Of a DNA stretch of 64,000 nt, positions 9,272 to 62,569 are shown piece after piece. The stretch is from NCBI RefSeq assembly GCF_014697545.1, contig NZ_JACJSA010000001.1, positions 372,001 through 436,000 on the forward strand. Reading direction: 5' to 3'. The stretch's first letter is position 1. Each line of letters starts with the position of its first letter. Source of the stretch: Oscillatoria sp. FACHB-1407. Lineage in GTDB: Bacteria > Cyanobacteriota > Cyanobacteriia > Elainellales > Elainellaceae. The notes under the pieces were generated by a model. The model saw only the letters and a list, made by a program, of their open reading frames with translations. It made no database searches and was not told where the DNA came from. Position numbers and translations under genes: made by a program.

Positions 9272-12200
9272 TTACCAGGGGCTACCGATCATGGTGAAAG
9301 CTGCCCAGTAGTAGGGGTGGGTCAGGTCGCGCTCATTATTAGCAATGAGTTGAGAAGGAAGGGCGATCGCCGTTCCATCCGACACAAGCAATTGATTTCG
9401 TTCCAGGCGCACCTCTCCTCTCAGCATGGCAATTTGGGTACGGCGCAGTGCCTCCGCTTTAATGGGAGACTGCCGCAACTGCCGATAAAACTCGGTCATA
9501 AAGCCCAACGTGCCATCATCGCTGACGTACCACAAGCTTGCCAGAGCTGTTTTAACCCCCGCTTGCACCGCTAACCCACCAAAGCCCAACTCGGCTTGTT
9601 CATCGCCCAACGCCGTTCGGCAAGCACTCAACACCAATAGATCTACAGGTGGATTGTTGAGATTGAGCCGTCGAACATCGTCCAGTTGCACCTGTTCATT
9701 CCAGAACTGAATGTAGGAATTGCTCAAGCTGCCTGCCCTAAATTCAGCATGGGTTGCCAAGTGGACAATGCGATAGGGAGTTTGCTGCCGTTGCAGTTGC
9801 AAATTCTCTAACGTGAAAGAGTTATTGAGGAATAATTGCCCTGATTCTGCGTTATTGGTGATGGTTGACAACTCAGTAGGTACAGCGGGGAGGTCAGGCA
9901 GTTTGTCTTGAAAATCAGAGGCACCCATTGCCAACACTTGAGCATCACGCAGGTCAGAATAGCGAGTATCCGTCAGGTTAAGGCTGGGCATAAAGCCGAC
10001 ACTGTATTTCTCAACTAGAAACTGTTGTCCATCGTGTAACGCTGCAATGGGAAGCGATCGCAACCCAGCCTCCATGATGAAGGATAAGTTCTCAATATTC
10101 TGCTCCTGCAACTCCGCCTCAATGGGGGTGATCAGCCATTGATAGAGTTGTTGGGCGGGGCGTAGATAGGCAGTGCTGCGAAGACGGCTGCGATCGGTGA
10201 TTTGTCCCAGGAGTTGCGTCGAGGCTTGACGAACCTGCGCCCGTGTCACCCCAGGTACCGGGTAACGAACAGGCTCTCCATCCGAGGTCACGATCAATAT
10301 TTCCAATTGATCCGTGTCACTGGCTGTAGCAGAGAGAGCAATTTCCCCAGTAGTACGGTTGAGGTGCTGAGCAAACTGTTGCGTTGAGGCAGCTTCCCGT
10401 CCGGCAAAATCGTTGTTGACCTGAATCTCATCTGAGACAAAGCCCACATAGATCAGGGCGGGAGTTGTCCCTGTTTGAGTTTGAATTTGTTGCAGGGTAG
10501 TTTGAACAACTCCAAGGTTGGGTGGTTCAATGGGAGGGTCTGTCGGCGGTGGGGGAGGCGGCGGTGGCTCTATCGTTGGGTCGTCGATGGTTTGAGTGCT
10601 GATTTGCACATTGCCCTGAACAAAGTCTCCCTCAATCTGTTGCACCGGAGCCAGCGTGACCGACCCAGTAGTAATAGCTCCGGCTGTGCCATTGGTCGTG
10701 GCATTGCCAATAACAAAGGGAATTTCCGTCGGCTCCCCATTTTCTCGTCCCTCAATCCGCAGAAAAACGCTACCTCCAGTGCCACCATTATTGCCTCCAC
10801 GAGTGGAGATGCTGGTCGTGTTAGTGGCATCTACAAAACCCGTTACTCGGAAATGTCGCCCAGCAAAAACGCGGACATCACCACCATTGCCGTTGCCACT
10901 ACCCTGGGTATTAATCGATCGCACCTCAACATCGCCAATCGGGTCTAAGCCTACCGAGCCACCGTTGCCATTTTGGGTTGCACTGGAGTCGATCGCCCCT
11001 GCTGTAATGCGATCGCGTGCATTGACCTCAATGTCTCCGCCTCCCGTTGCGCCAAACGACAGCAAATCTCCAATTTCGACAATTCCCGCTTCAGCAACCA
11101 GGCGAATGTCTCCCCCTTGAGCCGTTTCAGAACTGGTGTTGAGGTTTCCGGTGGTAGCACTACCACGACGCACCGAGCCATTGCTTTCGAGGGTGATACC
11201 AGCAGGAGCCGTAATGTTATTGACGATGATGTCACGCTCTGCACTGAGTTGAACGGGAGCCGTGATCCCTCCAATGATATCGTTGTTAGCGGTAATCCCG
11301 CCCTGTTCGGCATTGATTTGAGCACCGTTGGTGACGGTGACAGGAGTGTTGAAAATGATGTCGCCACTGGTGTTGATATTGGCAGCAACTTCAGCCGCTC
11401 GTGCGTTGATTTGTAAACCAGCCAGACGCACGGGTCCACCCACTTCACCCTCAAATCGAACAGTGCCCTGGGGAGCATTGACCTGAAAGTTGAAGTTGCC
11501 GCTGACAGAACCGCTAAAGTTAATGGCGTTACCGTTACTGGGGTTAGTGGCGTTGCTAGTCAGGGAGACATTGCCCTGTAGTTCGACTCGGCCAAAGTCG
11601 AGTGGGCTGTCGGTTGTAAGGTCGCGGCGCAGAACGGTGGTTCCCCCCCGGAAACTGGCTCTGGCATCATCTTGCAGAATCAAACCGCTATCTGGAGAAA
11701 ACGTGCCGTCTGTCACCCGAAAGATCACCGGATCACGGAACGTAACGTTGCTGATGGTGATGTTTCCTATCCCAGTGGCAATAGTGATGCTGCGGAAGCC
11801 ATCTGCCAGGGCATTAATGTCAGTCGTGGTGAGATCCAGGATGCCGTTGTCATCAGGCAACCCTACATCACCAACCTCAATCGATTGACTGTCAGGTCGA
11901 GCTTGCAACGTCAAAGACCGTCCTGTAACCGAGCCAACTCCACCCAGCAGATCGATCTCAGAGCCACTCAGGGTCAGGGGTCTAGCTCCTGCGGCAAGGC
12001 TCGCTTCAACAAGGAGCGTGTTAGCTGAGATCGTCAACTCGTCGGTGCTGCTCTGATCCAGAGTGATTGGACTGTTGAAGCGAATGTTGCCCACGGCTTC
12101 GACGCTTCCAGCCAGTTCAGTGGCGATCGCCGTTACGTTTAAGTTACCCAGGTTTGGACCCACAGTCGAACCAAACCGGGCTGTGCCGCTGCCCGCATTC

Positions 12201-15200
12201 ACCGTGAGATTGTTGGATTCACCACCCGCACTGTTGACCACACCAGCAAAGGTGACGTTGCCGCCATTGGTAAAGATGCCGACATCATCACCTATCGTGG
12301 TACGCCTTCGCAGAGTGATGTTTTGTCCCTCGGTGCTGATGCCAGCATTCAGTGTGGTTGCTCCAATCAGGGCGATCGCCGCATCATCAACACCGACTAT
12401 TTCTCCGTTGACCGTGATCGAACCATCGTTCGTTTGAATCGTCGTAGGGTCGCGGAATCCGACCGTATTCACCGTAATCTCACCACGACCATTCTCCCGC
12501 CCAATCGTGATGGAGTTGAAGCCGTTTTGCAGCAAGTTAACCTCTGCGCGGCTGAGCACCAATGCATCATCTGCATCATTACTGGACTCGACACCGCCAA
12601 TTTGAATGTTTCGAGCGGCTGTTGTCGGTTGAATCACCAAATTGCCCGTACCGGAGACAGTGCCGCGAAGGTCAATGTTATTTCCTGCCAGCGTGAGGTC
12701 ACCCTCTGCCCCAACAATATCGCCGCTGATCCGTCCCCCCTCGTCAAATACAAAGACATCGTTGGCATTCCCGGTGGTGATGTTTTCGATGCTGTTAAAG
12801 GTGAACCCTTGCGGGAAGGTGCTGTTGAGATTGCCCTGATTAACGCCAGTAATCGACCAGGTGGTGTTTTGATCCAGCCCAACCAGGGTTGAGCCTCCTA
12901 ACACATTGATGGGACTGGTAAAGGTGACACCGGGGTTGAGGGCGATCGTTCCTGTACCATTCGATCGCCCAATGTCAATGCGGCTAAAGCCCGGTTGCAA
13001 TTGAGCCAGGTCAGCGTCACTGAGATCCAGTGTCGTCACACTACCGCTGTCGGTTCCACCGAGGGCGATCGCTTGGGATGGAGTCAGCGGTTGCAGGGTC
13101 AGCACCCCGGTGCTTTGAATAAAACTGCCCTCCCCTAGAGCCATTTCATCCGCAATTAGGGTGACATTGCCACCTCCGGTAGACTCTACGACGCCCAATG
13201 CAATTCCAGGGACATCGGAAGTGCCGTTCCCCGTGCCTGTAATTTGAATGTCTCCGGTATTGCTGCGAATTGTTCCGGCCCCTACACCGACTCCATTGGC
13301 AACGGCTGTTCCAGTCAGTTGAATTGACCCCGTCCCTGTTGCGGTAATTTGTGAGCTATTAATCTCAATGCCATCGTTGTTATCACCTGTGGCGTTGCTC
13401 AACCCGGTCAGGGTGATGTTGCCATTGACCGTCCGGATTTGGCTATCGGTAAATAACAAAATGCCATCAATGAAAATGCCGTTGCCATTCCCTGTGCCGT
13501 TGAGGGTGATCGTACCAGTGTTGTTGGTTTCAAGCGTCGTGCCAAATGCCAGGGTAATCCCTGTGTTGTTGTTGCCACTACCCAGGATCGAGATATCACC
13601 GCCACCCGCATTCAGCGTTGAGCCATTCAAATCAACGCCTCGAACCCCATTCACATCGCCCACTGCCGCTTGAGTTCTAGGGTTAGTGCCACCGCCTAAA
13701 ACGATGTCACCGCCATTGGAATTTACTTGAGCACCATTCAGGGCGATCGCCCCTGCCCCATTGCCATCGCGATCGGAATTTAGGACAATATCACCGCCAC
13801 CAGTGGTGAGCGTGCCCGTTGCCGTAATGCTGTTATTAGCTTGAGCCGTGACGCTGCTCAGTCCAGTTGTCGCCGTAATGCTTCCCAAAGCAATATCCTG
13901 TCCTGCCTGGAAGGTCAGGTTAGCGTTATCTGCCGTGGTGATAAGGCTACCTGTGGTGTTAATGGAACCCAAGGATTGAAACTGTGTCGGATCGGTAAAT
14001 GTAGCATTGCCTGCCAGTGTCAGGGGTGAGCCACTATTTAAGATAAAGTTTGTGTTACCGGAGATCGTGCCATTGGCGTTGATGGTTGTTCCTGTCAGGG
14101 TGTTGGTGCCATTGGCTCCAGCAGTGCCACCAATTGAAGCTGACCGTGATGTAAGGTTGTTGTTCAGGTTGATGGTAGGTGCTGTAACGGAGATATTGCC
14201 ACTATTTCCAGCCGTGCTGCTGCCACCATTGGCGATCGCTCTGGAACTCACTTCTCCTCCAAGCGTAACCGTTCCAAGGGTAGTGCTAATATCGATGTTT
14301 CCGGAGTTGCCAGCGCGATCGCCTGCTCCCACTGAGGTTGCCTCTGCCGTCACACCTCCAGTAATATTCACGTTGCCTGACGGTGCTCTAACGGTGATAT
14401 TACCTGCGTTGCCAACAAATCCAAAATAACTGAGAGCATTGGTAGTAAGGCTACTGGCCGTGATGCCTCCCGTCGCAGCTTCTAAGAAAATGTTCCCTGC
14501 ATTCCGAGAACTCCCGGTGTAGATCAAGGCATTGATCGCCCCTAGGTTGAGACTATCTCCCAAAATGGTGATGTCAGCTCCAGTTCCGGGGATGATTCCG
14601 ATGTTGGGGGTTCCTGGTACGTATCCAGTGCTAATCGTGCCAGCAGTGGTGTTGACAATTCCTTCAGTGCTGGTGATGGTGATGGCGCGACCGGGGTTAG
14701 AAATGTTGCCTGTGGTGATATCGCCTAACGCTTGGAGGGCGATCGTGGCATTATCGCCACCTGTGATCGTGCCGCCTGTAGTGTTGATGGAACCTGCCGG
14801 AGCACGGAGTGTGACAGGGTCATTGAAGGTGACATCGCCTCCGAGAGTAATGGCTCCGCTACCATTAGCTCGACCAATGGTGATAGAGGCAAAGCCATTT
14901 TGCAGGTTTTGTGCCTCAGCTGTTGTCAGGAAGTTTGCCCCTGCACCGCCTAAAACGATGGGTGTTGCAGGATCTAGCGGTTGCAACAGCAGGTTGCCAC
15001 CACTACTGATAGTTGAGGCAATCTCAAGGCGATCGCCTGTTAACGTGATGTTGCCAGTACTCGTGCTAACAGGTAGGGGAATAAAGACTGATGAGGCACC
15101 CAGATTTCCGGTTGTGCCAGTGATTGAGATATTGCCGCCTACCGACGTAATTGGGCTAGTGATCTGTATCCCTGTGAATGTGGTGCTGTTGCCTGTTAGA

Positions 15201-17938
15201 GTAATGTTTCCATTATTAGAGTTGATGGTTGAGAACAAAATGATGCCCTCACCACCAAATCCCCCAGTTGCGTCGCCAGTGAGTGTAATTGCACCATCAC
15301 CCGACTGAATCGGTTCACGAACCGTGATACCGTCATCATCTCGAGCCGCAGTTCCCGTGACCTGAATGGTTCCTCCACCCGAATTCAATGCACCTCTCAA
15401 GAGAACTCCAGGTACTTCTAATCCGGGTCCACCGATCTGATCGCTTCTGCCAGAGATGGTGATATTGCCTCCGTTAGACGTGATGGGTCCTCGAATGTTT
15501 GTGCCAATTGTGCCATTGGGAGCGGAGAGCGTCACATTACCCGTAGCAGTAATGGCTCCAGTAGTAATGCCATTGCCCGTTTGAATCGTAACGCTGCCTG
15601 GACTGGTTAGACTAAAGCCATTGGCATTAAAAGAGCCTGTTGCTCCAGGAGCTTGCAGGGTAACAGCTTCATTAAAGGCGAGGTTGCCTCCCAGAGTAAT
15701 CACTCCACTGCCATCGGCTCGACCAATCGTCGTCGTACTGAAACCATCGGCGATCGCCGCTAGATCTGTGGCTAACAAATCAAAGGTTCCTACACCACCG
15801 TCTGCTGCTCCACCCAGGGCGATCGCCTGGTTTGGGGTCAGCGGTTGTAGCAGCAGCGCACCCGAACTGAGAACCGTTCCATTACCCGCGACGAAGTTAA
15901 TCTCATTTCCGGTTAGCTGAAAACTGCCGCCTCCAGGGTTCGCAAAGTTGGAGAACAGACGACCCGTTGTGATGGTGCCCCCCGTCATCACGATGTTTCC
16001 ACCTGTGGCATTGCCAGAGAAGGTATCCAGTCGAAACGTACTGGCACTGGTATCAATACCGCCTGCGGCAGTTGTGGTCAGAGTAATGGTTCCAGCGTTG
16101 CCGAAACCACCAAAGGTACGAGCTGTCAAATCAGAGGTGACAATGTTGCCGCCTTGAGTGCTTAGGGTGATGTTTCCGGCAGCACTGTCAGAGGAAGTGG
16201 CATCCAGCCTCCCAGCAACGGTGTTGATGTTTCCTGCTCCAGTTGAAGTCAGGGTGATGTCGCCTGCAATCCCTGGATTTGAGGTGCTGAGGTTGGCATT
16301 AAAGGAATTGGAAAACAGGCTGGCGTTAACGGTGATATTTCCCCCAGCCGTCAGGGCAATGTCGCCCCCGTCCGTCACAATATTGGCATTGACATTAATG
16401 TTGTTATTAGCTTGAGCTGCCAAACCCACCCCTGCTGTTGCGATCGAAACTGGGGCATTAAAGTTAATGTTGTTGGTCGCTTGCAAAATGATGTTGGTAG
16501 TTGCCGCATTGAGAATCGCGGCATCAATGGTATTGCCTCCCACATCGGGATCAGCAAACTGATCCACTTGAGTCAGGTTGCCAAACGATCCGGCTCCCGC
16601 TTGAATCGTGATGTTCGTCGGGTCGAGTAGCAAGGTTCCCGCGTTGCCATTGGGCGCAAGAGTATTCACCTGTCCTCGAAAATCCAGAGTTTCCAGGCCA
16701 GAGACTTCGACAAACCCACCATCGCCTGAGACACTTCCACCCTGAGCAGACACCGTTCCCAGAAATCGGGTTAGCTCGTCTGCCCAGACGATGACTCGTC
16801 CGCCACTGCCATTAGTTAGCGCATTGGCTTGAATCGATGAATTTTGGTCAACAACGGTACGAGAGGCGTTGAACACGCTGCCCTGTCCCTGATAGTCACC
16901 ACCGATGCGAACTGTCCCACCATTTTGAGCTGAGGCGTTGAGGGTTGCACCCAACAGAGCAACGCGATCGCCCAGGATATTGATTTGGGGAACCGTAGAA
17001 ACGCGATTCATTGCGTCTTGGGGATTGGTAACAGCATCTATCACACCGGAAGCGATCGCCGTTCCAGGGGTAGTGGGAATCGGGTTATCTGTGTTGGTTA
17101 GCCGAACTGTGCCGTCGGGATTCACCGTCAGTCCGGTTGCTCCTTCAACATCACCTCCAGTCAATAACTCCGGTAAAGATAAAGGTGTAAAGGGGAGGGC
17201 ATTTGGGCTGGAGCCAGTCGTAGCCGTTTCTAATTCCAGACTTAAGAGCAGTCCTTCCTGGCTGACTCGCACTCGGTTTTCTCCAGGTACAGCGGCGATC
17301 GTCACGGAACCTCCCGGCGCGGAGAGAGTTCCTGTGTTGATCACCGTTCCACCTAATAAAGTCAGGCTCTCTCCCTCAGCAACGGTGAGTTCTCCCGCAT
17401 TCAAAACAGAGCCAGGTTGAGCCACGGTAAAGGCAAACTGATCGGGATTGCCCACTAAATTGGCGTAATCATTGGAGCCGACTGCACTGAACCAGGTATT
17501 GCCAAACCCAATGCCGGTTGCGGTTGTTGCCGTGAAGGAAGCGGGCAGATCGAGCCGAGCATTTGCCCCAAATAAAATTCCGGCAGGATTAATCAGATAC
17601 AGGTTGGAGTTGCCGCCACTCATTTGCAGCAAGCCATTGATGATCGAGGCATCGCCTCCTGTTACCCGACCCAAAATATTTTGAATTTGGGGGTTGGAGA
17701 GAAAATTGGCAATTTCTCCGGCACTCAGTCCAAATTGCTCAAAACTATGAAAGAGATTTTGCCCGTCGCGAGACAGCGTGCCACCCTGAATGTCGTAACG
17801 ACTCCCCTGTCGATTGACCTGGGTATTCGTACCGTCCGGTGCTGCCGTCACTTGCGCGTTGACGGGATTACTCCAGGCAAGTGCTCCGATGGGAGTCAGA
17901 ATTAATGACAAACCAATTTTCGTCAGGCAACGCCGCAT
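9272..17938 (-). CDS. Giant filamentous-haemagglutinin-type protein with C-terminal CHAT protease domain
   Basis: 2888 residues from ATG 17938 (MRRCLTKIGLSLIL; an in-frame TTG lies 15 nt upstream). Signal peptide ends near PVNAQ. A two-partner-secretion domain follows to about residue 150 (typical SNLYLINPAGILFG). Then come about 2200 residues of beta-helical Gly/Asn/Thr-rich repeats. These include five ~75-residue modules (LQPL..., LGG, GF.SITIGR.NGSG, F.DPVTL) starting near residues 690, 983, 1610, 1766 and 2006. A polyproline linker sits near 2460. The last ~330 residues are a CHAT domain: His near 2727 in VHLATHAEF and Cys near 2772 in VLSACRTALGDEQ. The TPS domain predicts export through a TpsB pore, but no such gene is in the window. 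CHAT domains are caspase-like peptidases; substrate unknown. Confidence 0.88.
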   Translation of the reverse strand: MRRCLTKIGLSLILTPIGALAWSNPVNAQVTAAPDGTNTQVNRQGSRYDIQGGTLSRDGQNLFHSFEQFGLSAGEIANFLSNPQIQNILGRVTGGDASIINGLLQMSGGNSNLYLINPAGILFGANARLDLPASFTATTATGIGFGNTWFSAVGSNDYANLVGNPDQFAFTVAQPGSVLNAGELTVAEGESLTLLGGTVINTGTLSAPGGSVTIAAVPGENRVRVSQEGLLLSLELETATTGSSPNALPFTPLSLPELLTGGDVEGATGLTVNPDGTVRLTNTDNPIPTTPGTAIASGVIDAVTNPQDAMNRVSTVPQINILGDRVALLGATLNASAQNGGTVRIGGDYQGQGSVFNASRTVVDQNSSIQANALTNGSGGRVIVWADELTRFLGTVSAQGGSVSGDGGFVEVSGLETLDFRGQVNTLAPNGNAGTLLLDPTNITIQAGAGSFGNLTQVDQFADPDVGGNTIDAAILNAATTNIILQATNNINFNAPVSIATAGVGLAAQANNNINVNANIVTDGGDIALTAGGNITVNASLFSNSFNANLSTSNPGIAGDITLTSTGAGNINTVAGRLDATSSDSAAGNITLSTQGGNIVTSDLTARTFGGFGNAGTITLTTTAAGGIDTSASTFRLDTFSGNATGGNIVMTGGTITTGRLFSNFANPGGGSFQLTGNEINFVAGNGTVLSSGALLLQPLTPNQAIALGGAADGGVGTFDLLATDLAAIADGFSTTTIGRADGSGVITLGGNLAFNEAVTLQAPGATGSFNANGFSLTSPGSVTIQTGNGITTGAITATGNVTLSAPNGTIGTNIRGPITSNGGNITISGRSDQIGGPGLEVPGVLLRGALNSGGGTIQVTGTAARDDDGITVREPIQSGDGAITLTGDATGGFGGEGIILFSTINSNNGNITLTGNSTTFTGIQITSPITSVGGNISITGTTGNLGASSVFIPLPVSTSTGNITLTGDRLEIASTISSGGNLLLQPLDPATPIVLGGAGANFLTTAEAQNLQNGFASITIGRANGSGAITLGGDVTFNDPVTLRAPAGSINTTGGTITGGDNATIALQALGDITTGNISNPGRAITITSTEGIVNTTAGTISTGYVPGTPNIGIIPGTGADITILGDSLNLGAINALIYTGSSRNAGNIFLEAATGGITASSLTTNALSYFGFVGNAGNITVRAPSGNVNITGGVTAEATSVGAGDRAGNSGNIDISTTLGTVTLGGEVSSRAIANGGSSTAGNSGNISVTAPTINLNNNLTSRSASIGGTAGANGTNTLTGTTINANGTISGNTNFILNSGSPLTLAGNATFTDPTQFQSLGSINTTGSLITTADNANLTFQAGQDIALGSITATTGLSSVTAQANNSITATGTLTTGGGDIVLNSDRDGNGAGAIALNGAQVNSNGGDIVLGGGTNPRTQAAVGDVNGVRGVDLNGSTLNAGGGDISILGSGNNNTGITLAFGTTLETNNTGTITLNGTGNGNGIFIDGILLFTDSQIRTVNGNITLTGLSNATGDNNDGIEINSSQITATGTGSIQLTGTAVANGVGVGAGTIRSNTGDIQITGTGNGTSDVPGIALGVVESTGGGNVTLIADEMALGEGSFIQSTGVLTLQPLTPSQAIALGGTDSGSVTTLDLSDADLAQLQPGFSRIDIGRSNGTGTIALNPGVTFTSPINVLGGSTLVGLDQNTTWSITGVNQGNLNSTFPQGFTFNSIENITTGNANDVFVFDEGGRISGDIVGAEGDLTLAGNNIDLRGTVSGTGNLVIQPTTAARNIQIGGVESSNDADDALVLSRAEVNLLQNGFNSITIGRENGRGEITVNTVGFRDPTTIQTNDGSITVNGEIVGVDDAAIALIGATTLNAGISTEGQNITLRRRTTIGDDVGIFTNGGNVTFAGVVNSAGGESNNLTVNAGSGTARFGSTVGPNLGNLNVTAIATELAGSVEAVGNIRFNSPITLDQSSTDELTISANTLLVEASLAAGARPLTLSGSEIDLLGGVGSVTGRSLTLQARPDSQSIEVGDVGLPDDNGILDLTTTDINALADGFRSITIATGIGNITISNVTFRDPVIFRVTDGTFSPDSGLILQDDARASFRGGTTVLRRDLTTDSPLDFGRVELQGNVSLTSNATNPSNGNAINFSGSVSGNFNFQVNAPQGTVRFEGEVGGPVRLAGLQINARAAEVAANINTSGDIIFNTPVTVTNGAQINAEQGGITANNDIIGGITAPVQLSAERDIIVNNITAPAGITLESNGSVRRGSATTGNLNTSSETAQGGDIRLVAEAGIVEIGDLLSFGATGGGDIEVNARDRITAGAIDSSATQNGNGGSVGLDPIGDVEVRSINTQGSGNGNGGDVRVFAGRHFRVTGFVDATNTTSISTRGGNNGGTGGSVFLRIEGRENGEPTEIPFVIGNATTNGTAGAITTGSVTLAPVQQIEGDFVQGNVQISTQTIDDPTIEPPPPPPPPTDPPIEPPNLGVVQTTLQQIQTQTGTTPALIYVGFVSDEIQVNNDFAGREAASTQQFAQHLNRTTGEIALSATASDTDQLEILIVTSDGEPVRYPVPGVTRAQVRQASTQLLGQITDRSRLRSTAYLRPAQQLYQWLITPIEAELQEQNIENLSFIMEAGLRSLPIAALHDGQQFLVEKYSVGFMPSLNLTDTRYSDLRDAQVLAMGASDFQDKLPDLPAVPTELSTITNNAESGQLFLNNSFTLENLQLQRQQTPYRIVHLATHAEFRAGSLSNSYIQFWNEQVQLDDVRRLNLNNPPVDLLVLSACRTALGDEQAELGFGGLAVQAGVKTALASLWYVSDDGTLGFMTEFYRQLRQSPIKAEALRRTQIAMLRGEVRLERNQLLVSDGTAIALPSQLIANNERDLTHPYYWAAFTMIGSPW

Positions 17939-17968
17939 ACCAAAATTCCCCAATTCCCGGTGAACACA

Positions 17969-51370: not shown

Positions 51371-54300
51371 TTAGAGCATTAACCGGGCGATCGCCTCCAC
51401 TAACTCATCTGGCTCTATCGCACCCGACAAGATTCGCTGAATTCCGCTGGTCAATATCTCCTGCGAATCGCCTTCATTCGGGTCACTTGCCAGCGCAACC
51501 ACAGGAATTGCCTCCCCAAACGCTTGAGTCCACAACCGCAATCGGTGCATCAGTTCATCGTCATTGTCACGCAGGGCTTCCAGGGTGCTCACCAACACAT
51601 CCGGTTGCGATCGCGCTAATTCTTGCAGCACTGCCTCCGTTGAAGTGACAACGGTGACGGTTGCCCCGGCTTGTTGCAACGTTGCAGCAATTAACGCTTG
51701 TGTATCGTCGGCTGTGCCCACCAGCAAAACCTGCTTTGCTTGCAACATGGCTTCAGGTGTCGTGTGCTGTAGCGCATCAACGGGGGAGTCTGGCTCATCC
51801 GGATGCACTGGCAGTCGAACGGTAAAGACTGCCCCCTTTCCTATGCCTTCGCTGGCAACCTCAATGGTGCCCCCGTGCAACTCAACTAGATGACGGGCGA
51901 TCGCCAACCCTAAACCCAACCCACCCACCGAGCGAGTGGATGTGCCATCGGCTTGTCGGAAATAGTCAAACACGTAGGGCAAGAAATCGGAACTGATGCC
52001 TTTTCCAGTATCGCGAACGGTAATTTGAGCATAGGTGGCAGTTGGGGAGTGGAGGTTGGAGGCAGTGGAGTTCTCATCCACACTCTCCGGTTCTATGGTT
52101 TCCAGGCGCACCTGGACTCGTCCTCGCTCCGGCGTAAATTTCACGGCATTAGACAGGAGATTCCACATCACTTGTTGGAGCCGTTCCTGGTTACCCAACA
52201 CCGCCGGAACGGTGACATCTAACTGAGTCTCAATCGCAATCGATTTCGCTTGCGCTGACAACCACACCGTGGCGATCGCCCCTTCAATCACCTCCACAAG
52301 ATGCACCGGACAGCAGTTCATGGTCAATTTGCCCTGCAAAATCCGGGAAACATCGAGTAAATCTTCTATCAATTGTGCTTGCTGGCGGGCGTTGCGATCG
52401 ATCGTCTCCAATGCCTGATCGACCATTTCCGATGGCAGATGTCGAGTGCGTAGCAATTTAGTCCAACCCAAAATTGGGTTGAGTGGCGTTCGCAATTCGT
52501 GCGAGAGCACCATCAAAAACTCATCCTTGATCCGGTTTGCCGCTTCTGCTTCAGTGCGGGCGGCTCGTTCTAATTGCATCAGGCGATCGCGTTCCATTTC
52601 AGCCTGTCTGCGATCGCTTAAATCCAACACGAAGAAGACTCCACTCTCAATCGTGTCTTGAAACGTTGCCCCACCACACAACACAGGCACTCGCGACCCA
52701 TCTCGACGAAAGAATTCCTTTTCAAAGGGAGGGCAAACCCCAGTCTCACGAATCTCTGCCAGCGCGCGTTCATCTAACTCGGCATACTCGGATGGGGTCA
52801 GAACTCTCCACCCTGGCTGCTCCGCAAGAAACTGTTCGCGGGTGTAGCCCAGCAGTCTCAACAGGGCATCATTGGCATCAGAGATGGCTCCTGCAATCGT
52901 CCAGAAGCCCATACCAATCATGTTGGACTCCATCACCCGTCGAAAGCGAATTTCGCTGTCCCGCAGCGATCGCTCCACTTGCTTGACTTCTGTAAAGTCG
53001 GAGGTGATGCATAAAATCGATTCCACCATGCCATTAGGGGCAAACTCCGGCACCAGGCGAGCAAAGTAATAACGGGTTCCATCGGGGGCAGGAAACTCAA
53101 ATTCATAGGAGCAGGGCTGACCTGTTACGAAAACCTGTTGCATCCGTTCTTGCCACAGATTTCGCAGATAGATTGGCATATTCAGGTCAGCATTGGTTTT
53201 GCCAATAAACGCTTCTGGTGGCAACCCCGTTGCTCTGGTAATAGCCGCATTGATGTACACATGGCGAAAGTTGTGATCCATCCGGGCGATAATATCGGGA
53301 GAATTATCTGCCAGTGTCTTAAATCGCTGTTTGCGACGCGCCAACTCCTGCTCATAGCGTTTCAGGTCATCAATATCAGTGCTGGTGCCAACCCACTTCA
53401 CTACTTGCCCGCGATCGCCCTTCACGGGGACACAGCGACCCAAAAACCAGCGATAGCTACCATCCGCCATGCGATAGCGAAACTCAGCTTCTCGCACATC
53501 ACTATCGCGCATGGAGGTGGCTTCCTTTGCCTGGAGGTGTGGCAGGTCATCAGGATGAACCAGATGTTCCCATCCCTCCCGATCGACCTCCGTCAATGTT
53601 ACACCGAGGGCTTGCTGCCATTGCTGATTGGCGTAGTCTACTTTGCCTTCAGCATTTTGTGTCCAGACCAGTTGGGGCATCGCCTCCGCCAGAGTCCGAT
53701 AAAGGGCTTCACTGGCTTTAAGTGCCTCTTCTGCCTGTTTGCGTTCGCTAATATCACGAGTGGTGATGGCGATGCCATCTCCTAAGGGCACAACTTGATG
53801 ATGGAGCCAGGAGGCTGCAACGCCGGGCATCGTGTGACTGGGAAACTCCTCCACTAAGGGAATTCCCATCTCAACAACCTGCTTATATTTCTCAAAAAAA
53901 CCCTGACTTAGATTGATTGGCAGTAACTCACACAGGTTCTTTCCGACAACTTCAGCTTTTGTGCGGGAGATGAGTTTTGCTCCATGTTCGTTTAAATCGA
54001 CAAACTGAAAATCAACAATCTCTCCAACTCTATTTCGCACACTTCTGAGAATATAAATCGCATCAAAGCTACTCTCTGCGGCAGCATGAAACCGAGCATC
54101 ACTCTCACGTAAAGCAGCTTCAGTTTTCTCTAGATCAATTAAGTGTCTGCGATTACGGTGATGAACAAGACGTAAGTCAACCTCTAGACGACTAATCAAG
54201 AGTGTAGTGAGGCTAAAAATAATTAGTTCAGCGATCGCCGCACTGTGAATTGGCAAAAATGTGTAGAGCGGTGGCAGTAAAAAATATCGAGTGACTAAGA

Positions 54301-54487
54301 CCGATAAAACGGTTGCAGCAAATCCTGCTCCGCGCCCACCATACCAGGTGCTAAAGGTGACAGCCAGGAAAAATAACGGTAATACGGTAGGAGCTAACAG
54401 CGATTGCAATAGCAGCGTTAGCACAAGTGCCAGGGCAACCGATCCGACAGCTACCCCGTAACGTAGTAGTCGAACGGGTCTGAGCAT
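51371..54487 (-). CDS. Hybrid PAS-rich sensor histidine kinase with degenerate receiver
   Basis: 1038 residues. Order: membrane domain of the DUF4118/KdpD type (about 8-115, with AVTFSTWYGGRGAGFAATVL), four PAS domains (about 125-245, 255-375, 385-505, 507-630), dimerisation/phospho-acceptor helix with His663 in VLSHELRTPLNP, and an ATPase domain with N box NLLSNAVKFTP, DTGKGIS and GLGLGLAIARHLVELHGG. The last ~125 residues fold like a receiver, but the acceptor position is Thr968 (PDVLVSTLEAL; Asp expected), and the acidic pair near the start is replaced (LLVGTADD). It cannot be phosphorylated in the normal way. Input signal unknown. Transcribed divergently from the bilin-GAF kinase. Confidence 0.9.
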   Translation of the reverse strand: MLRPVRLLRYGVAVGSVALALVLTLLLQSLLAPTVLPLFFLAVTFSTWYGGRGAGFAATVLSVLVTRYFLLPPLYTFLPIHSAAIAELIIFSLTTLLISRLEVDLRLVHHRNRRHLIDLEKTEAALRESDARFHAAAESSFDAIYILRSVRNRVGEIVDFQFVDLNEHGAKLISRTKAEVVGKNLCELLPINLSQGFFEKYKQVVEMGIPLVEEFPSHTMPGVAASWLHHQVVPLGDGIAITTRDISERKQAEEALKASEALYRTLAEAMPQLVWTQNAEGKVDYANQQWQQALGVTLTEVDREGWEHLVHPDDLPHLQAKEATSMRDSDVREAEFRYRMADGSYRWFLGRCVPVKGDRGQVVKWVGTSTDIDDLKRYEQELARRKQRFKTLADNSPDIIARMDHNFRHVYINAAITRATGLPPEAFIGKTNADLNMPIYLRNLWQERMQQVFVTGQPCSYEFEFPAPDGTRYYFARLVPEFAPNGMVESILCITSDFTEVKQVERSLRDSEIRFRRVMESNMIGMGFWTIAGAISDANDALLRLLGYTREQFLAEQPGWRVLTPSEYAELDERALAEIRETGVCPPFEKEFFRRDGSRVPVLCGGATFQDTIESGVFFVLDLSDRRQAEMERDRLMQLERAARTEAEAANRIKDEFLMVLSHELRTPLNPILGWTKLLRTRHLPSEMVDQALETIDRNARQQAQLIEDLLDVSRILQGKLTMNCCPVHLVEVIEGAIATVWLSAQAKSIAIETQLDVTVPAVLGNQERLQQVMWNLLSNAVKFTPERGRVQVRLETIEPESVDENSTASNLHSPTATYAQITVRDTGKGISSDFLPYVFDYFRQADGTSTRSVGGLGLGLAIARHLVELHGGTIEVASEGIGKGAVFTVRLPVHPDEPDSPVDALQHTTPEAMLQAKQVLLVGTADDTQALIAATLQQAGATVTVVTSTEAVLQELARSQPDVLVSTLEALRDNDDELMHRLRLWTQAFGEAIPVVALASDPNEGDSQEILTSGIQRILSGAIEPDELVEAIARLML

Positions 54488-54811: not shown

Positions 54812-57800
54812 ATGTCTTCCCATCAAGCTTGTTTAGAACAGGTTTTGGAACAGATCACTTATTTCTCTCAGCAGATTCAACTCGCTTCTGATCTTGACGC
54901 CGTATTAGATGTCACAGTCACAGGAGCTAGAGAGCTTTTGAAGAGCGATCGCATCCTGATCTACCGCTTGTTACCCGATGGAGACGGAGTAGTAACTGCT
55001 GAGTCCATCAGCCATCCATCATTCTCCTTGCGAGGGCAATTAATCTACGACCCCTGTTTTCAGACGACATGGAATCAACGCTATCAACAGGGAGAGATTA
55101 CCGCGATCGCCGATCGAGAAACAGCCCATCTTGCCCCCTGCTATTACGAGCTACTTCTGCGGCTTCAGGTACACGCCAATCTGGTTGTGCCGATTTTGCT
55201 GCAATCAGGCGATCGCCAACACCCTCCCATGCTCTGGGGGTTGCTCATCGCCCATCAATGCCAAGCCCCGCGCTACTGGCAACCCCTTGATCTTCAGATC
55301 TTGCGCCATCTCGCCATGCAACTGGGGTGCAAGCTAAAAACGCTGACAACTAATCGCCCTGAGCAAGACTTGCAGCGATCGCTACAAGCATTGCACCACA
55401 GTCGGGTCATGATTTCGCTCTACACGATGGATGGGGTGCCATTATTGCAAAACCTGGCGGCTTTGCGCTGTTTTGGGGATAGCTCACAAGCCCAACCCCA
55501 ACAGAGCCATTCCTTTTTGAGCCGTTTTGTTGACCCCACCGTAGGTCAGCAGGTAATGCACGAACTTGAACGAAGAGAGCGGTTCGACATCAAAACAGAA
55601 GTCTTAACACGGGCAGGGGTGCGCTGGCACAGGGTAGATGGGCAGTGTGTCAAAGACCCCATTACGGGCGCATCTCTCATCTTGATCAACGAAGACGACA
55701 TTACTGACCAACAGGTGGCACTGAGCGATCGCCTGCAAGCTGAGGCACAACTGGAGGCACAACAAGCATTTCTGCATCAAATTATCGATACGGTTCCCAG
55801 TTCCATCTTTGTTAAAGACTGGGAGGGGCGGTGTCTGGTGGTAAACCAGGCAAGTGCCAGCATTCACGGCAGTACTATCGAAGCCATGCTGGGTAAACGA
55901 GAAGTGGACTTTAACCCCAACTTCAAGGGGGAACAGCTAGAGCAGTTTTTAGCCGCTAATCGAGTCACGATGGCAAACCGTCAGACTCAACAGCAAATTC
56001 AGCAGATTACGACAGCGAGCGGCGAGGTGCGCTGGTATCAAACCGTAGTGCGTCCCTGGATTGACTCCAGTGGCTATGTTCAAGGGGTAATTGGCAACTC
56101 CGTTGACATCACCGAACTGAAACAGATCGAAGCGGCACTCCAACAAAAATCGGAGCGACTCGCAACCATCATCACGGTGCAACAAGACATCGCCCTTAAA
56201 CATCCCAATCTGGATGCAGTCATGGCGTTGATTGTGGAACACGCGCAGAAGTTAACCCACGCTAACGGCTCTGTAATCGAATTTGTCGAAGCAGACAAGT
56301 TAATTTGTCGGGCAGCCAGTGGCACAGCATCCTCCTATCTGGGCTTTCGGTTCGAGGCTGCTAACAGCCTATCGGGACACTGTATCGCAACAGGCAAAGC
56401 TCTATTGTGCGACGATGTGGAAACAGATCCACGGGTTAATTTAGCGGCTTGCCGTCAAATGCAGGTGCGATCGATGGTCGCGCTTCCCCTGGTGGCTTCG
56501 GGGGGGTGTGTTGGTGTGCTCAAGGTCTTTTCTCAAACCCCTGCGGCGTTCACAAATCAGGATATTCAAACGCTGCAATTGATGGCGGGGTTTCTCACCG
56601 CTTCGATTCAACTGGCGACTGAGTTTGAGTCCAAAAATGCCCTCCTCAATGCCCTCCAGGAAAGTGAAGATCGATACCGCTCGGTTGTTACGGTCATGTC
56701 AGAGGGGGTCGTGCTTCAACAAGCCGATGGGCTAATCACCGCCTGCAACAGCAGTGCAGAAAAAATCTTAGGGCTGACTCAAGCCCAAATGATGGGACGC
56801 AATTCCATTGACTCGCGCTGGCAAACCATTGATGAGGATGGCTCTCCCCTTCCCGGTGACATGCATCCCGCTATGGTGACCCTGCGAACCGGAGAACCCC
56901 AATCTAATGTTGTTATGGGGGTTCATAAACCCGATGGCAATCTTACCTGGATTTCTGTCAACTCTCAACCACTGATCCATTCCGGTGAGTCTCGTCCTTA
57001 CGCTGTGGTGACGTCTTTTGTGGATATCACAGCGCAAAAGCAAGCTGAAGTCAACCTGCGCCACCAGGCAGAGCGAGAGCAGATGATTTCAGCGATCGCC
57101 CAACACATTCGTGAATCCCTCGATCTCAACGCCATTCTCAATACCACCGTCACAGAGGTACGTCACTTTCTACAGTGCGATCGCGTCATCATCTACCGCT
57201 TTAACCCTGACTGGAGCGGAGTTGTTGTGACGGAATCCGTTGCTCCTGCCTGGAGTTCTATTCTCAATCTGGAAATTTGTGATACGTACTTCGTTGAAAA
57301 TCATACAAAGGCATATGCCATCGGAGCCATTCAAGCCAGGGATGACATTTACAGTTCAGGGCTGAGTCAGTGCCACATCGAGTTGTTAGAAACACTCCAG
57401 GTGAGAGCCAAACTGGTTGTTCCCATCTGGCAGGGCGATACGCTGTGGGGGTTGTTGATAGCTCATCAGTGTAGTGCTCCTCGTCACTGGCAACCACTAG
57501 AACGGGAATTACTCCTACAGTTGGCAACTCAGTTGGCGATCGCCATCCAACAATCTGAGCTATATCGCCAGGTGCAGCATTTAAACACCCATTTAGAACT
57601 GCAAGTGCAGGAACGAACCCTGCAACTGCGACAGGCATTAGCTTTTGAGGCTCTATTGAAGCGTATTACTGACAAGGTGCGTGACAGCCTGGACGAGCAA
57701 GCAATTTTGCGGTCTGCCGTGCAGGAATTGGGACAGGGATTAAACACGATCTGCTGTGACACAGGCATCTATAGTGCCGATCAAACCCTATCTACAATCG

Positions 57801-58903
57801 TCTACGAATTCAGCAACATCTCATCCTCAGCGCAGGGCAAAACCTTTGCGATCGCCAACGCCTCTCACAGCGAAGTCTATCAATATTTGCTGCAAGGACA
57901 GGTCTGCCAGTTCTGCGATATGGCTCCGAATCCGCTCCGATCCGAACAGCAAAAGCTATCGGTGCTGGCTTGTCCGCTGATGGATGATCAGGGTGTGTTG
58001 GGCGACCTCTGGCTGTTTAAGGCGTCCGAGTCAGGCTTTGACGACCAGGAGGTGCGATTGGTGCAACAGGTCGCAAACCAATGTGCGATCGCCCTGCGTC
58101 AGTCGCGGCTCTATCGCGCTGCTCAAAATCAAATTGAGGAGTTAGCCCGCTTAAACCAACTCAAAGACGACTTTCTGAGCACGGTGTCTCATGAACTCCG
58201 AACACCCATGTCCAGCATGAAAATGGCGATTCAAATGCTGGAAATTTGTCTGCGTCCCTTCGATGTTTTTGAGTCAGATACCAACCCTATCAATCGCTAT
58301 TTCCAGATTTTGCAGACGGAATGTCAGCGAGAAATTACCCTGATCAACGATCTGCTTGATCTGACTCGTATTGACTCCGGTTCAGACCCGTTAAACCTAT
58401 CGCCAATCCATCTCCAGTTTTGGGTTATGCATGTGTCAGAACCCTTCTTCCAACGCACCTATCATCAGGAACAACGCCTGGAGATGCTCATTCCTGACGA
58501 CTTGCCTCCATTTACCACCGATCTGCTCTACCTGGAACGAGCCCTCACCGAACTGCTCCACAACGCTTTTAAGTACACTCCACCGGGCGAAACGATCACT
58601 GTCTCCGCCCGTCTAGCCGAAGACCAATCCACAACAAACCGTTTGACAGCCGACAACACCAATCACTTTCTCTTCATTGAGGTCAGCAACTCCGGGGTCG
58701 AAATCCCCGAAATCGAGCGCGATCGCATTTTTGATAAGTTCTATCGCATTCCTAACAACGACCCCTGGAAGCATGGTGGCACCGGGTTGGGGCTATCCCT
58801 GGTGAAGAAGCTCGTGCAGCGACTGGGCGGCACGATTTGGGTCGAGAGTGGCGACAACCTCACCCGCTTCATCATGCAGTTCCCGCTCGAACCATCCCTG
58901 TAA
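54812..58903 (+). CDS. Multi-GAF/PAS sensor histidine kinase with two cyanobacteriochrome-type GAF domains
   Basis: 1363 residues from ATG 54812 (a GTG at 54770 is in frame). Order: GAF1 (about 20-175), PAS-like region, PAS (around 325-450), GAF (about 470-610), PAS (about 620-745), GAF2 (about 770-930), coiled linker, GAF (about 960-1100), phospho-acceptor His1127 in [11 protein letters not shown], and ATPase domain with [21 protein letters not shown]1 has the Asp-x-Cys-Phe motif DPCF (Cys82) and Cys110-Tyr in [11 protein letters not shown]2 has the canonical bilin attachment pair Cys854-His855 in [20 protein letters not shown], with DTYF (824-827) where Asp-x-Cys-Phe would be. No membrane segment. 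A light-sensing soluble kinase is likely; colour tuning cannot be read from sequence. No response regulator adjoins it. Confidence 0.88.
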
Positions 58904-58910
58904 TCTGTAG

Positions 58911-59117
58911 CCTGTGCTGGGTTTGATCCTCCCTAGCCCTCCTTAGAAAGGCTAGCGTGTACACAGAAGTTTCCTCAGCCCCCTAAATCCCCCAATTCTG
59001 GGGGACTTTCTTAGCCTGTGCTGGGTTTGATCCTCCCTAGCCGTCCTTAAAAAGGCTACCGTGTACACAGAAGTTCCCTTAGCCCCCTAAATCCCCCAAT
59101 TCTGGGGGACTTTGAGC
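58911..59117. repeat. 104-bp tandem duplication
   Basis: Two adjacent copies beginning CCTGTGCTGGGTTTGATCCT at 58911 and 59015, with few differences, each carrying GGCTA(G/C)CGTGTACACAG and CCCCCAATTCTGGGGGAC. They are duplications of a MITE end plus a G/C-tract repeat, directly after the bilin-GAF kinase gene. Confidence 0.8.
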
Positions 59118-59284: not shown

Positions 59285-59452
59285 CTCGTTCACGAGTATC
59301 CAGGACTCTCGCACGAGTATTAAACACTCTCGCACGAGTATCAAACACTCTCGCATGAATATCCAGAACTCTCGCACGAGTATTAAACACTCTCGCATGA
59401 GTATCAAACACTCTCTCACGAGTATCCAGGACTCTCACACGAGTATCCAACA
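59285..59452. repeat. 21-bp tandem array with palindromic core
   Basis: Eight consecutive 21-bp units of the type CTCTCGCACGAGTATCAAACA; most keep the core CTCG-CA-CGAG, a small inverted repeat. Decayed units continue to about 59500. The period is a multiple of three, so an opposite-strand frame reads a heptapeptide repeat, but nothing else supports coding. The rest of the gene-free stretch 58904-59680 is repeat DNA. Confidence 0.85.
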
Positions 59453-59680
59453 CTCATCCAAGAACGATCGCCTCTCATCCATGAGTCATCGATCCTCTCG
59501 CTTGAGCATCTGAGTCAGATTCCCGGAGTCTTGAGAATTCCAGGGATCGGATACCAACTCCCCAAAGCAGAACCACAGATAGGGTAGGGGTGGTTCGTGA
59601 ACCACCCTGACAAACGATCCAAACCCTTGCACTTACTAAAACCTTTGCCAAAATAGAAATGCCCCCAACACGTCTCGCCC

Positions 59681-62569
59681 ATGACCCCCGACGACTTACT
59701 CGCCCTGATCGATCGCGCCGCTGACGAAGGGTGGACAGAACTTGACCTCTCAGGCAACGGGTTGACGGAATTGCCAGGGGCGATCGCCAAGTTGACCCAA
59801 CTAGAAAAGCTGATCTTGGGGAAGGTAGAAAAATGGGAATGGGTAGATAATAAACCCGTCCCAACATTGGTGACGAATGAACTCAAAGCATTGCCGGATG
59901 AACTGGCAGCATTAGAAAAGTTGCGATCGTTGGACATCAGTGGCAATCCGTTAGAGGTTGTCCCAGAGGTGGTGCTAAAGCTTCAACAGTTAACGTCTCT
60001 AAGGTTAGTTAGCACGAGCTTGTCAGACATTAGCGCGATCGAAGCCTTGACCAATCTGACGCAGCTTTACCTCGATAACAACCAAATCAGCGACCTCAAG
60101 CCGATCGAAGCCTTGACCAATCTGACGCTGCTTTACCTCTCTAACAACCAAATCAGCGACCTCAAGCCGATCGAAGCCTTGACCAATCTGACGCTGCTTT
60201 ACCTCTATAACAACCAAATCAGCGACCTCAAGCCGATCGAAGCCTTGACCAATCTGACGCAGCTTTCCCTCTATAACAACCAAATCAGCGACCTCAAGCC
60301 GATCGAAGCCTTGACCAATCTGACGCTGCTTTACCTCTCTAACAACCAAATCAGCGACCTCAAGCCGATCGAAGCCTTGACCAATCTGACGCTGCTTGAT
60401 CTTGAGAATAATCGGATTACTGAAATTCCGGTAGCAATTGCCCAACTCAACCAGTTAGATAAACTCGATCTACGGGGTAATCCGATCAGCATTCCCCCTG
60501 ATATTCTTGCGCCCAAACCTGGTGAGACCCGTCCTGATGCTCGCCCCATTCTCGACTACTATTTCCGCACCCAAGACCCCAACCAGACCACTCATCTCTA
60601 CGAAGCCAAAATCTTGATTGTGGGCGAAGGCGGGTCAGGAAAAACCAGTCTTGCTCGCAAACTGCTTGACCCCGATTACAAGCTGCCCTCTGAAACAGAA
60701 GATACCTCCACCCAAGGAATTGATATTCTCCGTTGGGAGTTCACAGGGCGCAACCAGCAACACTATCAAGTCAACCTGTGGGATTTTGGCGGACAGGAGA
60801 TCTATCACCAAACCCACCAGTTCTTTCTCACCGAACGCTCTCTCTATTTGCTCGTAGCCGATAGCCGCAAAGAAGATACAGATCACTACTTTTGGCTAAA
60901 CATTATCCGCCTACTCAGCAACGACAGTCCGGTGCTCTTGATCCAGAACGAAAAACAAAATCGCACCTGCAACTTAAACCTGCGTGAACTCCGGGCTGAA
61001 TTTGAGAGCCTCAGACCACCGCTAAGCACCAACCTGGCTGACAATCGTGGACTCTCCGAAGTACAAACCGCCATTCAACATAACCTGGAAGACCTGCTTC
61101 CCAACGGTATTCCCTTTCCCAACTCCTGGCTCAATGTTCGCTATGCCCTTGAAAACGATGGGCGCAACTATATTGATTTCGCCGACTATAGAGATATCTG
61201 CCACTATCACGGCATTACCCGCCACGAGGAAATGTGTGACTTGAGCCATTTCCTCCATAGCCTTGGCATCTGTCTACATTTCCAAAAAGACCCGGTTCTA
61301 CGCCATCGTCTTATTCTCAAGCCCAATTGGGGCACAACAGCGGTCTATAAAATTCTCGACAATCCCAAGGTCAAACAACAACTGGGACAGTTTTGCAACG
61401 ACGATCTAAACAACATCTGGCAATCTCATCAGTATGCCGATATGCGCTATGAGCTACTGCAATTGATGAAGGAGTTCAAAGTCTGCTACGAGATTCCACG
61501 ACGGCAAGGCAACTACATTGCCCCCCATCTGCTCTCACCTACTCCACCTGACTACATCTGGGATAACAGCCAAAATCTGATTTTGCGCTATCGCTATCAA
61601 GGCTTTATGCCCAAAGGCATTCTCACTCGCTTTATTGTTGAAATGCACGAGTTGATTGAAAACGTTTCCGATCCAGACCAGGCTCTAGTCTGGAGACACG
61701 GCGTTGTGCTCAATCAGGGACGTGCTCGTGCTGAAGTAATTGAACGCTCCCACGATCGCGAAATTCGTATCCGATTAAGCGGCAACAACCAGCGAGACTT
61801 GCTCGTGACGCTCAACTACGAATTTGAGAAAATTCACAAGAGCTTTGATGAGAGGTTAAACTATGACACGCTCATTCCCTGCAACTGCGCCACCTGCAAA
61901 CTGAGATCTGAACCTTACACCTACACCCTTGATCGACTGAAGCAATTTATTGATCAACGTCGTCCGACGATCCAATGCTATGAAAGCTCTGAAGATGTCA
62001 ATGTTCGCCGTCTATTGGATGACTCCATTGAACCGACTGTGGATCACCGACTGCGGGAGATGGGCGATCTCGAATTAGACAAGATGTCTCGATTTTTAGG
62101 AACGCAGGAGCTAGCTGAGCGATTCAATATCAACATCTATAACACCCAACATCAAGGAGATCACAAACCCATGACCGAGATTACCAATAACAACCAGGGC
62201 GCAAACATCGCCAACCTCGTCAACGAAGCTAAAGACAACGCTCAAGTCACCGCCTCCAACTTCACCCAGACCAGTGGTGTCTCCACCACCGACCTGCTGC
62301 AAATCATCAACACTCTGCGTCAAACCGTTGCCCAGTTGCCTCAAGAGACTCAAGCAGAGATCATTGTCGATCTGGAGGATGTCGAAGACGAGATCAAAAA
62401 ACCAGAGAATCAACGCAATCCGACCCGCCTGAAAAAGCGTTTAACTGCCCTGCTTGCCGCAGCTTCCGTCGCCGCCACCTCCGTTGCCGCAATGAATGAG
62501 TTCACTGGCAACGTCATCGATCTGGGTGACAAGTTAGGCATTGAGCTTCAACTTCCCGCTGCCCCTTAA
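59681..62569 (+). CDS. LRR-Roc-COR (Roco-type) GTPase with C-terminal extension
   Basis: 962 residues. N-terminal leucine-rich repeats (about 12-285), of which five are the almost identical 22-residue unit NNQISDLKPIEALTNLTLLY. Roc GTPase: P-loop GEGGSGKTS (315-323), threonine switch DTSTQGID, switch II LWDFGGQEIYHQTHQFF, and VLLIQNEKQNR where an Asn-Lys-x-Asp base-recognition motif would be. COR domain follows (about 480-800). The last ~130 residues (from about 831) contain SGVSTTDLLQIINTLRQTV and a hydrophobic AAASVAATSVAAM segment. Roco proteins dimerise through COR and act as nucleotide-controlled switches. No kinase domain is present. A second ATG at 62171 with AAGGAG could give a separate C-terminal product. 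Confidence 0.9.
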   Translation: MTPDDLLALIDRAADEGWTELDLSGNGLTELPGAIAKLTQLEKLILGKVEKWEWVDNKPVPTLVTNELKALPDELAALEKLRSLDISGNPLEVVPEVVLKLQQLTSLRLVSTSLSDISAIEALTNLTQLYLDNNQISDLKPIEALTNLTLLYLSNNQISDLKPIEALTNLTLLYLYNNQISDLKPIEALTNLTQLSLYNNQISDLKPIEALTNLTLLYLSNNQISDLKPIEALTNLTLLDLENNRITEIPVAIAQLNQLDKLDLRGNPISIPPDILAPKPGETRPDARPILDYYFRTQDPNQTTHLYEAKILIVGEGGSGKTSLARKLLDPDYKLPSETEDTSTQGIDILRWEFTGRNQQHYQVNLWDFGGQEIYHQTHQFFLTERSLYLLVADSRKEDTDHYFWLNIIRLLSNDSPVLLIQNEKQNRTCNLNLRELRAEFESLRPPLSTNLADNRGLSEVQTAIQHNLEDLLPNGIPFPNSWLNVRYALENDGRNYIDFADYRDICHYHGITRHEEMCDLSHFLHSLGICLHFQKDPVLRHRLILKPNWGTTAVYKILDNPKVKQQLGQFCNDDLNNIWQSHQYADMRYELLQLMKEFKVCYEIPRRQGNYIAPHLLSPTPPDYIWDNSQNLILRYRYQGFMPKGILTRFIVEMHELIENVSDPDQALVWRHGVVLNQGRARAEVIERSHDREIRIRLSGNNQRDLLVTLNYEFEKIHKSFDERLNYDTLIPCNCATCKLRSEPYTYTLDRLKQFIDQRRPTIQCYESSEDVNVRRLLDDSIEPTVDHRLREMGDLELDKMSRFLGTQELAERFNINIYNTQHQGDHKPMTEITNNNQGANIANLVNEAKDNAQVTASNFTQTSGVSTTDLLQIINTLRQTVAQLPQETQAEIIVDLEDVEDEIKKPENQRNPTRLKKRLTALLAAASVAATSVAAMNEFTGNVIDLGDKLGIELQLPAAP
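60041..60400 (+). repeat. 66-bp nearly identical tandem repeats inside the LRR region
   Basis: Units starting GAAGCCTTGACCAATCTGAC occur at 60041, 60107, 60173, 60239, 60305 and 60371 (the last partial). Differences between units are confined to a few bases coding the variable residues (CGATAA, CTCTAA, CTATAA and GCAGCTT/GCTGCTT). Near identity at synonymous sites implies recent expansion or homogenisation. Confidence 0.95.

Follow-up and report, generated by a model that had tools for sequence, protein, structure and literature searches.

The colour of a cyanobacteriochrome (CBCR) is normally predicted from a few sequence motifs, and several groups of these photoreceptors have been set apart in this way. 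Typical members of the DXCF type, which carry a second cysteine in an Asp-x-Cys-Phe motif, are described as binding phycoviolobilin and switching between blue and green (PMC11284453); according to another account, DXCF domains isomerise phycocyanobilin usually, but not always, and their photoproducts span teal to orange (PMC5578081). The residue directly following the canonical cysteine has received attention, too: a histidine there is said, with reference to Sato 2019, to suppress formation of the thiol adduct and to be important for thioether cleavage in the 15E state (PMC9415938), and a tyrosine, in engineered scaffolds lacking the DXCF cysteine, is reported to stack on the bilin and to favour biliverdin binding or fluorescence (PMC6336887, PMC9378818). 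Outside the DXCF type, a WXDXXL motif is given as the mark of extended red/green (XRG) CBCRs (PMC11284453), DXXF as that of the NpR3784 subfamily, for which a red dark state is stated (PMC5578081), and a protochromic triad with Leu after the cysteine as that of RcaE-type domains (PMC9415938). For PPHK, a histidine kinase of Leptolyngbya sp. JSC-1, absorption of the Pg form is reported at 562 nm (PMC11480761).

The window, that is, the whole stretch of 64,000 nt from Oscillatoria sp. FACHB-1407 analysed here, encodes a histidine kinase (Table 1). It is probably a soluble, light-regulated kinase whose two bilin photosensors, the DXCF-type GAF1 and the single-cysteine GAF2, differ in colour; sequence, predicted fold, alignment, grouping and the recurring pairing of both domains point this way, and bilin binding and colours are predicted from them. 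The residues reported in the first-pass annotation, Cys82 (in DPCF), Cys110-Tyr111, DTYF and Cys854-His855, are all present in one translated frame at positions confirmed by script, for which an in-frame GTG at 54770 is an alternative start. Its view that two CBCR GAF domains of differing type reside in one soluble kinase is borne out by alignment to solved CBCRs and by the predicted CBCR fold: the cysteines align with the chromophore-binding cysteines of the solved proteins. Pfam places GAF (PF01590) in four stretches of the protein, together with PAS domains, and HisKA and HATPase_c with HELRTP identify it as a sensor histidine kinase. The 19-residue segment of highest mean hydrophobicity (1.88, Kyte-Doolittle) falls within the GAF domain spanning 466-599, which gives no indication of a membrane helix.

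Table 1. Features of the kinase gene and its divergent neighbour, with positions in the window and basis of assignment.
Feature	Position	Strand	Basis
Divergent neighbour, DUF4118-PAS histidine kinase, receiver-like C-terminus (below Pfam cut-off)	51371..54487	-	Pfam
CBCR sensor histidine kinase, 1363 aa	54812..58903	+	translation from ATG 54812, Pfam
GAF1 region (residues 1-186), DXCF-type CBCR GAF domain	54812..55369	+	phmmer, predicted fold
DPCF motif (80-83), second cysteine Cys82	55049..55060	+	ungapped alignment to TePixJ DPCF
Canonical Cys110 and Tyr111	55139..55144	+	aligned to TePixJ Cys-His
Site behind GAF1 lacking about 158 residues of the closest kin (linker and PAS-like stretch)	55355..55363	+	kin alignment
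PAS domain (326-437)	55787..56122	+	Pfam
GAF domain (466-599), without CBCR cysteines	56207..56608	+	Pfam, alignment
PAS domain (621-728)	56672..56995	+	Pfam
GAF2 (771-912), CBCR GAF domain without DXCF cysteine	57122..57547	+	Pfam, alignment, tree, predicted fold
Cys823, directly before Asp of DTYF, rare position	57278..57280	+	census, scripted positions
DTYF motif (824-827)	57281..57292	+	translation
Canonical Cys854-His855	57371..57376	+	translation
Lys867 (canonical Cys +13), characteristic of the GAF2 group and aligning to the lysine of RcaE	57410..57412	+	alignment
Fourth GAF domain (about 946-1096), without canonical Cys	57647..58099	+	L008 696-846 (L008 starts at residue 251)
HisKA (1118-1190), HELRTP at 1127	58163..58381	+	Pfam, scripted positions
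HATPase_c (1238-1360)	58523..58891	+	Pfam

Judged by its residues, GAF1 is an ordinary DXCF dual-cysteine domain, with the second cysteine in Asp-x-Cys-Phe and the canonical cysteine for ring A of the bilin. At E<=1e-3 it has hits to 22 distinct PDB sequences, the best at 1.9e-34, and phmmer places its DPCF on the DPCF of TePixJ and Cys110 on the canonical cysteine with zero gaps between. The AF2 model (pLDDT 92.9) has the CBCR GAF fold and compares with TePixJ (PDB 4glq) at Z 24.0 and an rmsd of 2.2 Å over 149 residues; since miRFP670nano and bacteriophytochromes reach similar Z, this score speaks for the fold only. The GAF1 group comprises 29 rows gathered by hand from a tree of 214 domains, as sets of 10 and 19 below an unresolved fork, and 28 of them keep the second cysteine. 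That GAF1 might attach its chromophore through one cysteine only, as had been proposed, is thus unsupported: both cysteines are there at the spacing of TePixJ.

The change from His to Tyr next to the anchor cysteine had also been called uncommon, which a census of the CBCR domains collected here does not bear out. From 321 distinct domains, 217 were counted after leaving out 37 with fewer than 110 filled columns and 67 without the canonical cysteine; among them are five PDB references, one of which is engineered (miRFP670nano, H87Y). Cys-Tyr is carried by 62 of the 156 domains with a second cysteine, next to 89 with Cys-His, three with Cys-Asp and two with Cys-Leu, fractions that are not those of random samples because likeness to GAF1, GAF2 or PPHK was the criterion for collecting the rows. 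By source, Cys-Tyr accounts for 5/18 second-cysteine domains in the organism's own genome (GAF1 included), 35/85 in the scan of genome contigs, 22/52 at other loci and 0/1 among the references. The rule of thumb is amended accordingly: Tyr after the canonical cysteine is common among DXCF domains. Cys-Asp is found in three of the 29 GAF1-group domains (L012, L054, L056). Separately, a further CBCR GAF domain of the organism's own genome (L039, C5:49000-52000) has a large insert with DRCVLR before DTYL, resembling the insert-Cys type, and its anchor is Cys-Tyr.

Cys-Tyr was considered as the mark of a single DXCF lineage, and this was rejected: over 151 rows the Tyr/His state requires at least 29 changes on the best 214-row tree (from which three long-branch rows of the 217 had been left out), and well-supported branches alone, with all other rows counted as a third group, force at least eight. 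The state is nevertheless more clustered on this tree than in shuffles. The codon of Tyr111 is TAT, one base apart from the CAY of His, and the GAF1 rows of L059 and L060, near-identical otherwise, differ at exactly this position. Two further columns go with the tyrosine, Pro at the X of DXCF (58/62 Cys-Tyr vs 51/89 Cys-His rows) and Gly at Cys-35 (53/62 vs 35/89); their independence of kinship was not confirmed, the eight independent pairs of supported branches including too few informative ones. From the roles reported for Tyr in the engineered scaffolds and for His in adduct control, it might be that Tyr111 shifts the adduct balance of GAF1.

The assignment of GAF2 is less simple. It matches 99 distinct PDB sequences at the cut-off used for GAF1 (best 2.2e-59), its closest solved relatives being PPHK, with 90 of 160 residues identical, and miRFP670nano; its model (pLDDT 83.5) reaches Z 24.0 vs 6oap and 24.9 vs 3w2z, with phytochromes at similar Z, so that no lineage is drawn from these scores. 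By its residues, it fits none of the XRG, NpR3784 and CcaS/RcaE marker sets in full, although it is from such sets that colour is usually read. In place of WXDXXL it has I-C-D-T-Y-F, in which Ile replaces the Trp and Phe the Leu. The DXXF of the NpR3784 subfamily is present as DTYF, but the phenylalanine in beta1 is not (DRVIIY in GAF2 vs DRVFVY in PPHK; parental NpR3784 has F25). As for the green/red protochromic triad, the lysine is there as Lys867, with His855 standing for Leu and Thr825 for Glu; the position of this lysine we take to be that of Lys261 in the Glu/Leu/Lys triad of RcaE.

Lys867 is shared by the domains that group with GAF2. This group comprises 21 domains, 20 of them without the second cysteine, and Lys at Cys+13 is found in 20 of the 21 rows (L150 has Glu) vs 12 of the 196 others, where the first fraction describes the group and not a random sample, as many of its rows were fetched by likeness to GAF2. 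The 12 others are nine Cys-Leu domains without a second cysteine, RcaE among them, one Cys-Leu domain with it, one Cys-Ala domain and one DXCF domain with Cys-His. On the trees, the GAF2 group stands apart from the PPHK/NpR3784 rows, from the red/green NpR6012g4 and from RcaE, so one lysine marks both the GAF2 group and a green/red lineage that sits elsewhere. Support for the 21 rows is SH-aLRT 92 in the 214-row tree; in a more careful tree of 52 thinned rows, without long-branch rows and with the DXCF-Cys, Cys+1 and Cys+13 columns removed, it is 94/84 for the 16 thinned rows of the group and 97/86 for 15 of these.

It is possible, if on the unlikely side, that GAF2 is a plain member of the NpR3784 subfamily, together with PPHK, and would have a red dark state and a variable photoproduct. 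Its DXXF is the motif stated for that subfamily (PMC5578081), PPHK and the NpR3784-derived miRFP670nano are its best solved relatives, and a single clade of the GAF2 group and the PPHK/NpR3784 rows is not rejected by the AU test (p 0.3). Nevertheless, the two sets of rows separate in both trees that hold enough of them, and three positions tell them apart, measured against a PPHK-like set of only five rows: the beta1 Phe is present in 4/4 natural PPHK-like and 0/21 GAF2-group rows (NpR3784 had Phe there before engineering), Cys+8 is Phe in 5/5 and Leu in GAF2 (with Phe in L212 of its group), and Cys+13 is Asn in the four natural rows and Lys in 20/21. A separate lineage for the GAF2 group is likely but, given the AU result, not proven. 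One of its members, L116, has DSCF, which points to loss or renewed gain of the second cysteine inside the group or close to its base. No description of the group was found in the open-licence literature, which is a weak negative. More doubtful is a wider proposal drawn from the sequences, namely that GAF2 is part of a single-cysteine CBCR lineage not described so far, which has lost the cysteine of DXCF, has acquired a lysine of the RcaE type independently, would run a protochromic photocycle, switched by pKa, with Cys-His replacing Cys-Leu, and is recurrently paired with a DXCF blue sensor in front of kinase or c-di-GMP outputs. If GAF2 were protochromic, it would represent a second route to pKa-switched photoreception.

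A dual-cysteine cycle of GAF2 by way of Cys823, at residue 823 of the stretch CDTYF (823-827), seems very improbable. A cysteine directly before the Asp motif occurs in two of the 217 domains, and second cysteines have arisen elsewhere, for example, in helix alpha3 of AM1_1186g2 (PMC6628166); however, none of the 19 other rows of alignment A3 has Cys at this position, the closest having Arg or Thr, and Cys823 is thus private to the window protein.

The two domains recur together. A GAF1-group and a GAF2-group domain lie in one frame in 12 proteins, that of the window included, and a 13th pair (G003, L049/L020) is split over two frames; the 13 come from 11 genome records, not all of which could be matched with one another, with two each in the window genome and in G003. 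The split of L049 (G003 C8), which in G003 is the counterpart of the window kinase, reflects a frameshift or an assembly error. GAF1 keeps the second cysteine in 12/13 pairs and GAF2 lacks it in 12/13, both being true in 11; the exceptions are L212, without the second cysteine of GAF1, and L116, with that of GAF2, while L217 is without the Asp of GAF2. The GAF2 motif reads D[TSN]YF in 10/13, the others being DSCF (L116), DTHL (L212) and GTDF (L217). Six pairs precede a HisKA/HATPase output (the window protein, L025, L048, L050, L217 and L049, the last because its alignment with the window protein extends through residue 1360 of the latter) and seven a GGDEF output (L060, L055, L057, L059, L116, L211, L212). 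The middle region varies also, L050, L055, L057 and L116 being shorter with fewer domains between GAF1 and GAF2. Of the 291 genomes sampled from the class, 17 have kin of GAF1 at E<=1e-44, its own genome included. GAF1 and GAF2 would form a two-colour pair that recurs while its outputs are exchanged, the colours being predicted; its presence before both kinase and GGDEF domains lets one ask whether the two-colour logic is a portable unit.

The window copy differs from its kin behind GAF1. In the closest, L025, L048 and L049, the protein is longer by about 150-160 residues at this place, and the more distant L056, L059 and L060 have extra residues there, too; in L025, L048, L053, L056 and L060 the extra stretch reads, by eye and not by a Pfam assignment, as a linker and a PAS-like region. 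With the frame of the window gene kept and its closest kin longer, loss of a domain in the window copy would be the simplest reading. The missing stretch, and the end branch of GAF1 (0.38), the longest among the four rows of its smallest subgroup, would also be compatible with GAF1 or GAF2 being a non-photoactive remnant and with the kinase sensing something else through its other GAF/PAS domains; this appears improbable, as both cysteines of GAF1 and the canonical one of GAF2 are kept and the frame is open over 1363 codons.

A 68% identical counterpart of the DUF4118-PAS neighbour is located divergently beside L049 in G003, and because this arrangement is conserved in that one other genome, the two kinases may work together. 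Behind the kinase gene, the window has two tandem arrays, one at 58908-59113 made of two copies of a 104-base unit (95%) and one at 59291-59455 with some eight copies of a 21-base unit (81%), followed at 59681-62569 by a gene for an LRR-Roc-COR protein in whose leucine-rich repeats lies a 66-base tandem array of 5.5 copies (96%); on the minus strand, a frame of 2893 aa (9272-17953) combines an N-terminal TPS secretion domain with a C-terminal CHAT domain.

In the genome (8.13 Mb, 66 contigs), a search with GAF1 gives 37 hits at E<=1e-5, counting GAF1 itself and GAF2. The genome encodes one ferredoxin-dependent bilin reductase and two heme oxygenases, so that a bilin supply is plausible. For the two-sensor kinase favoured here, the following scenario is proposed. 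In GAF1, Cys110 would hold the bilin at ring A and Cys82 would reversibly attack C10, so that the dark state would absorb blue light and the photoproduct longer wavelengths; the latter would most likely be green should the bilin be isomerised to phycoviolobilin, and orange if it is still phycocyanobilin. Tyr111, where many relatives have His, would probably tune protonation or packing of the bilin without abolishing its binding. GAF2 would hold phycocyanobilin through Cys854 alone and hence presumably absorb at longer wavelengths in both states, and Lys867 may set the pKa of the bilin as in green/red CBCRs. Both signals would pass through the PAS/GAF linkers to HisKA/HATPase, by which the kinase could compare or combine two colours.

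Among described systems, the GAF domain of TePixJ (a DXCF blue/green CBCR; PDB 3vv4, 4glq) resembles GAF1 in the DPCF second cysteine, the identical spacing to the canonical cysteine, the predicted fold and Leu at Cys+8, with 56 of 135 aligned residues identical; GAF1 differs by Tyr instead of His after the canonical cysteine and by an insert before the LWGLL strand. NpF2164g5 and the engineered miRFP670nano H87Y share the tyrosine directly after the canonical cysteine, but they are without the DXCF cysteine that GAF1 has in addition. PPHK (PDB 6oap, "dual sensor histidine kinase"), whose CBCR GAF domain is the nearest solved relative of GAF2, likewise couples light input to a histidine kinase, yet GAF2 lacks its Phe residues in beta1 and at Cys+8 and has Lys at +13. 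The NpR3784 subfamily, from which miRFP670nano was derived, has DXXF and a single canonical cysteine in common with GAF2, but not the absence of the beta1 Phe, and it lies apart on the trees even though joining the two is not rejected statistically. Finally, the green/red CBCRs CcaS and RcaE (PDB 7ckv, 8k9o) share with GAF2 the lysine at canonical Cys +13, whereas GAF2 has Cys-His instead of Cys-Leu, Asp-Thr instead of the Gln-Glu of RcaE, and a place elsewhere on the tree.
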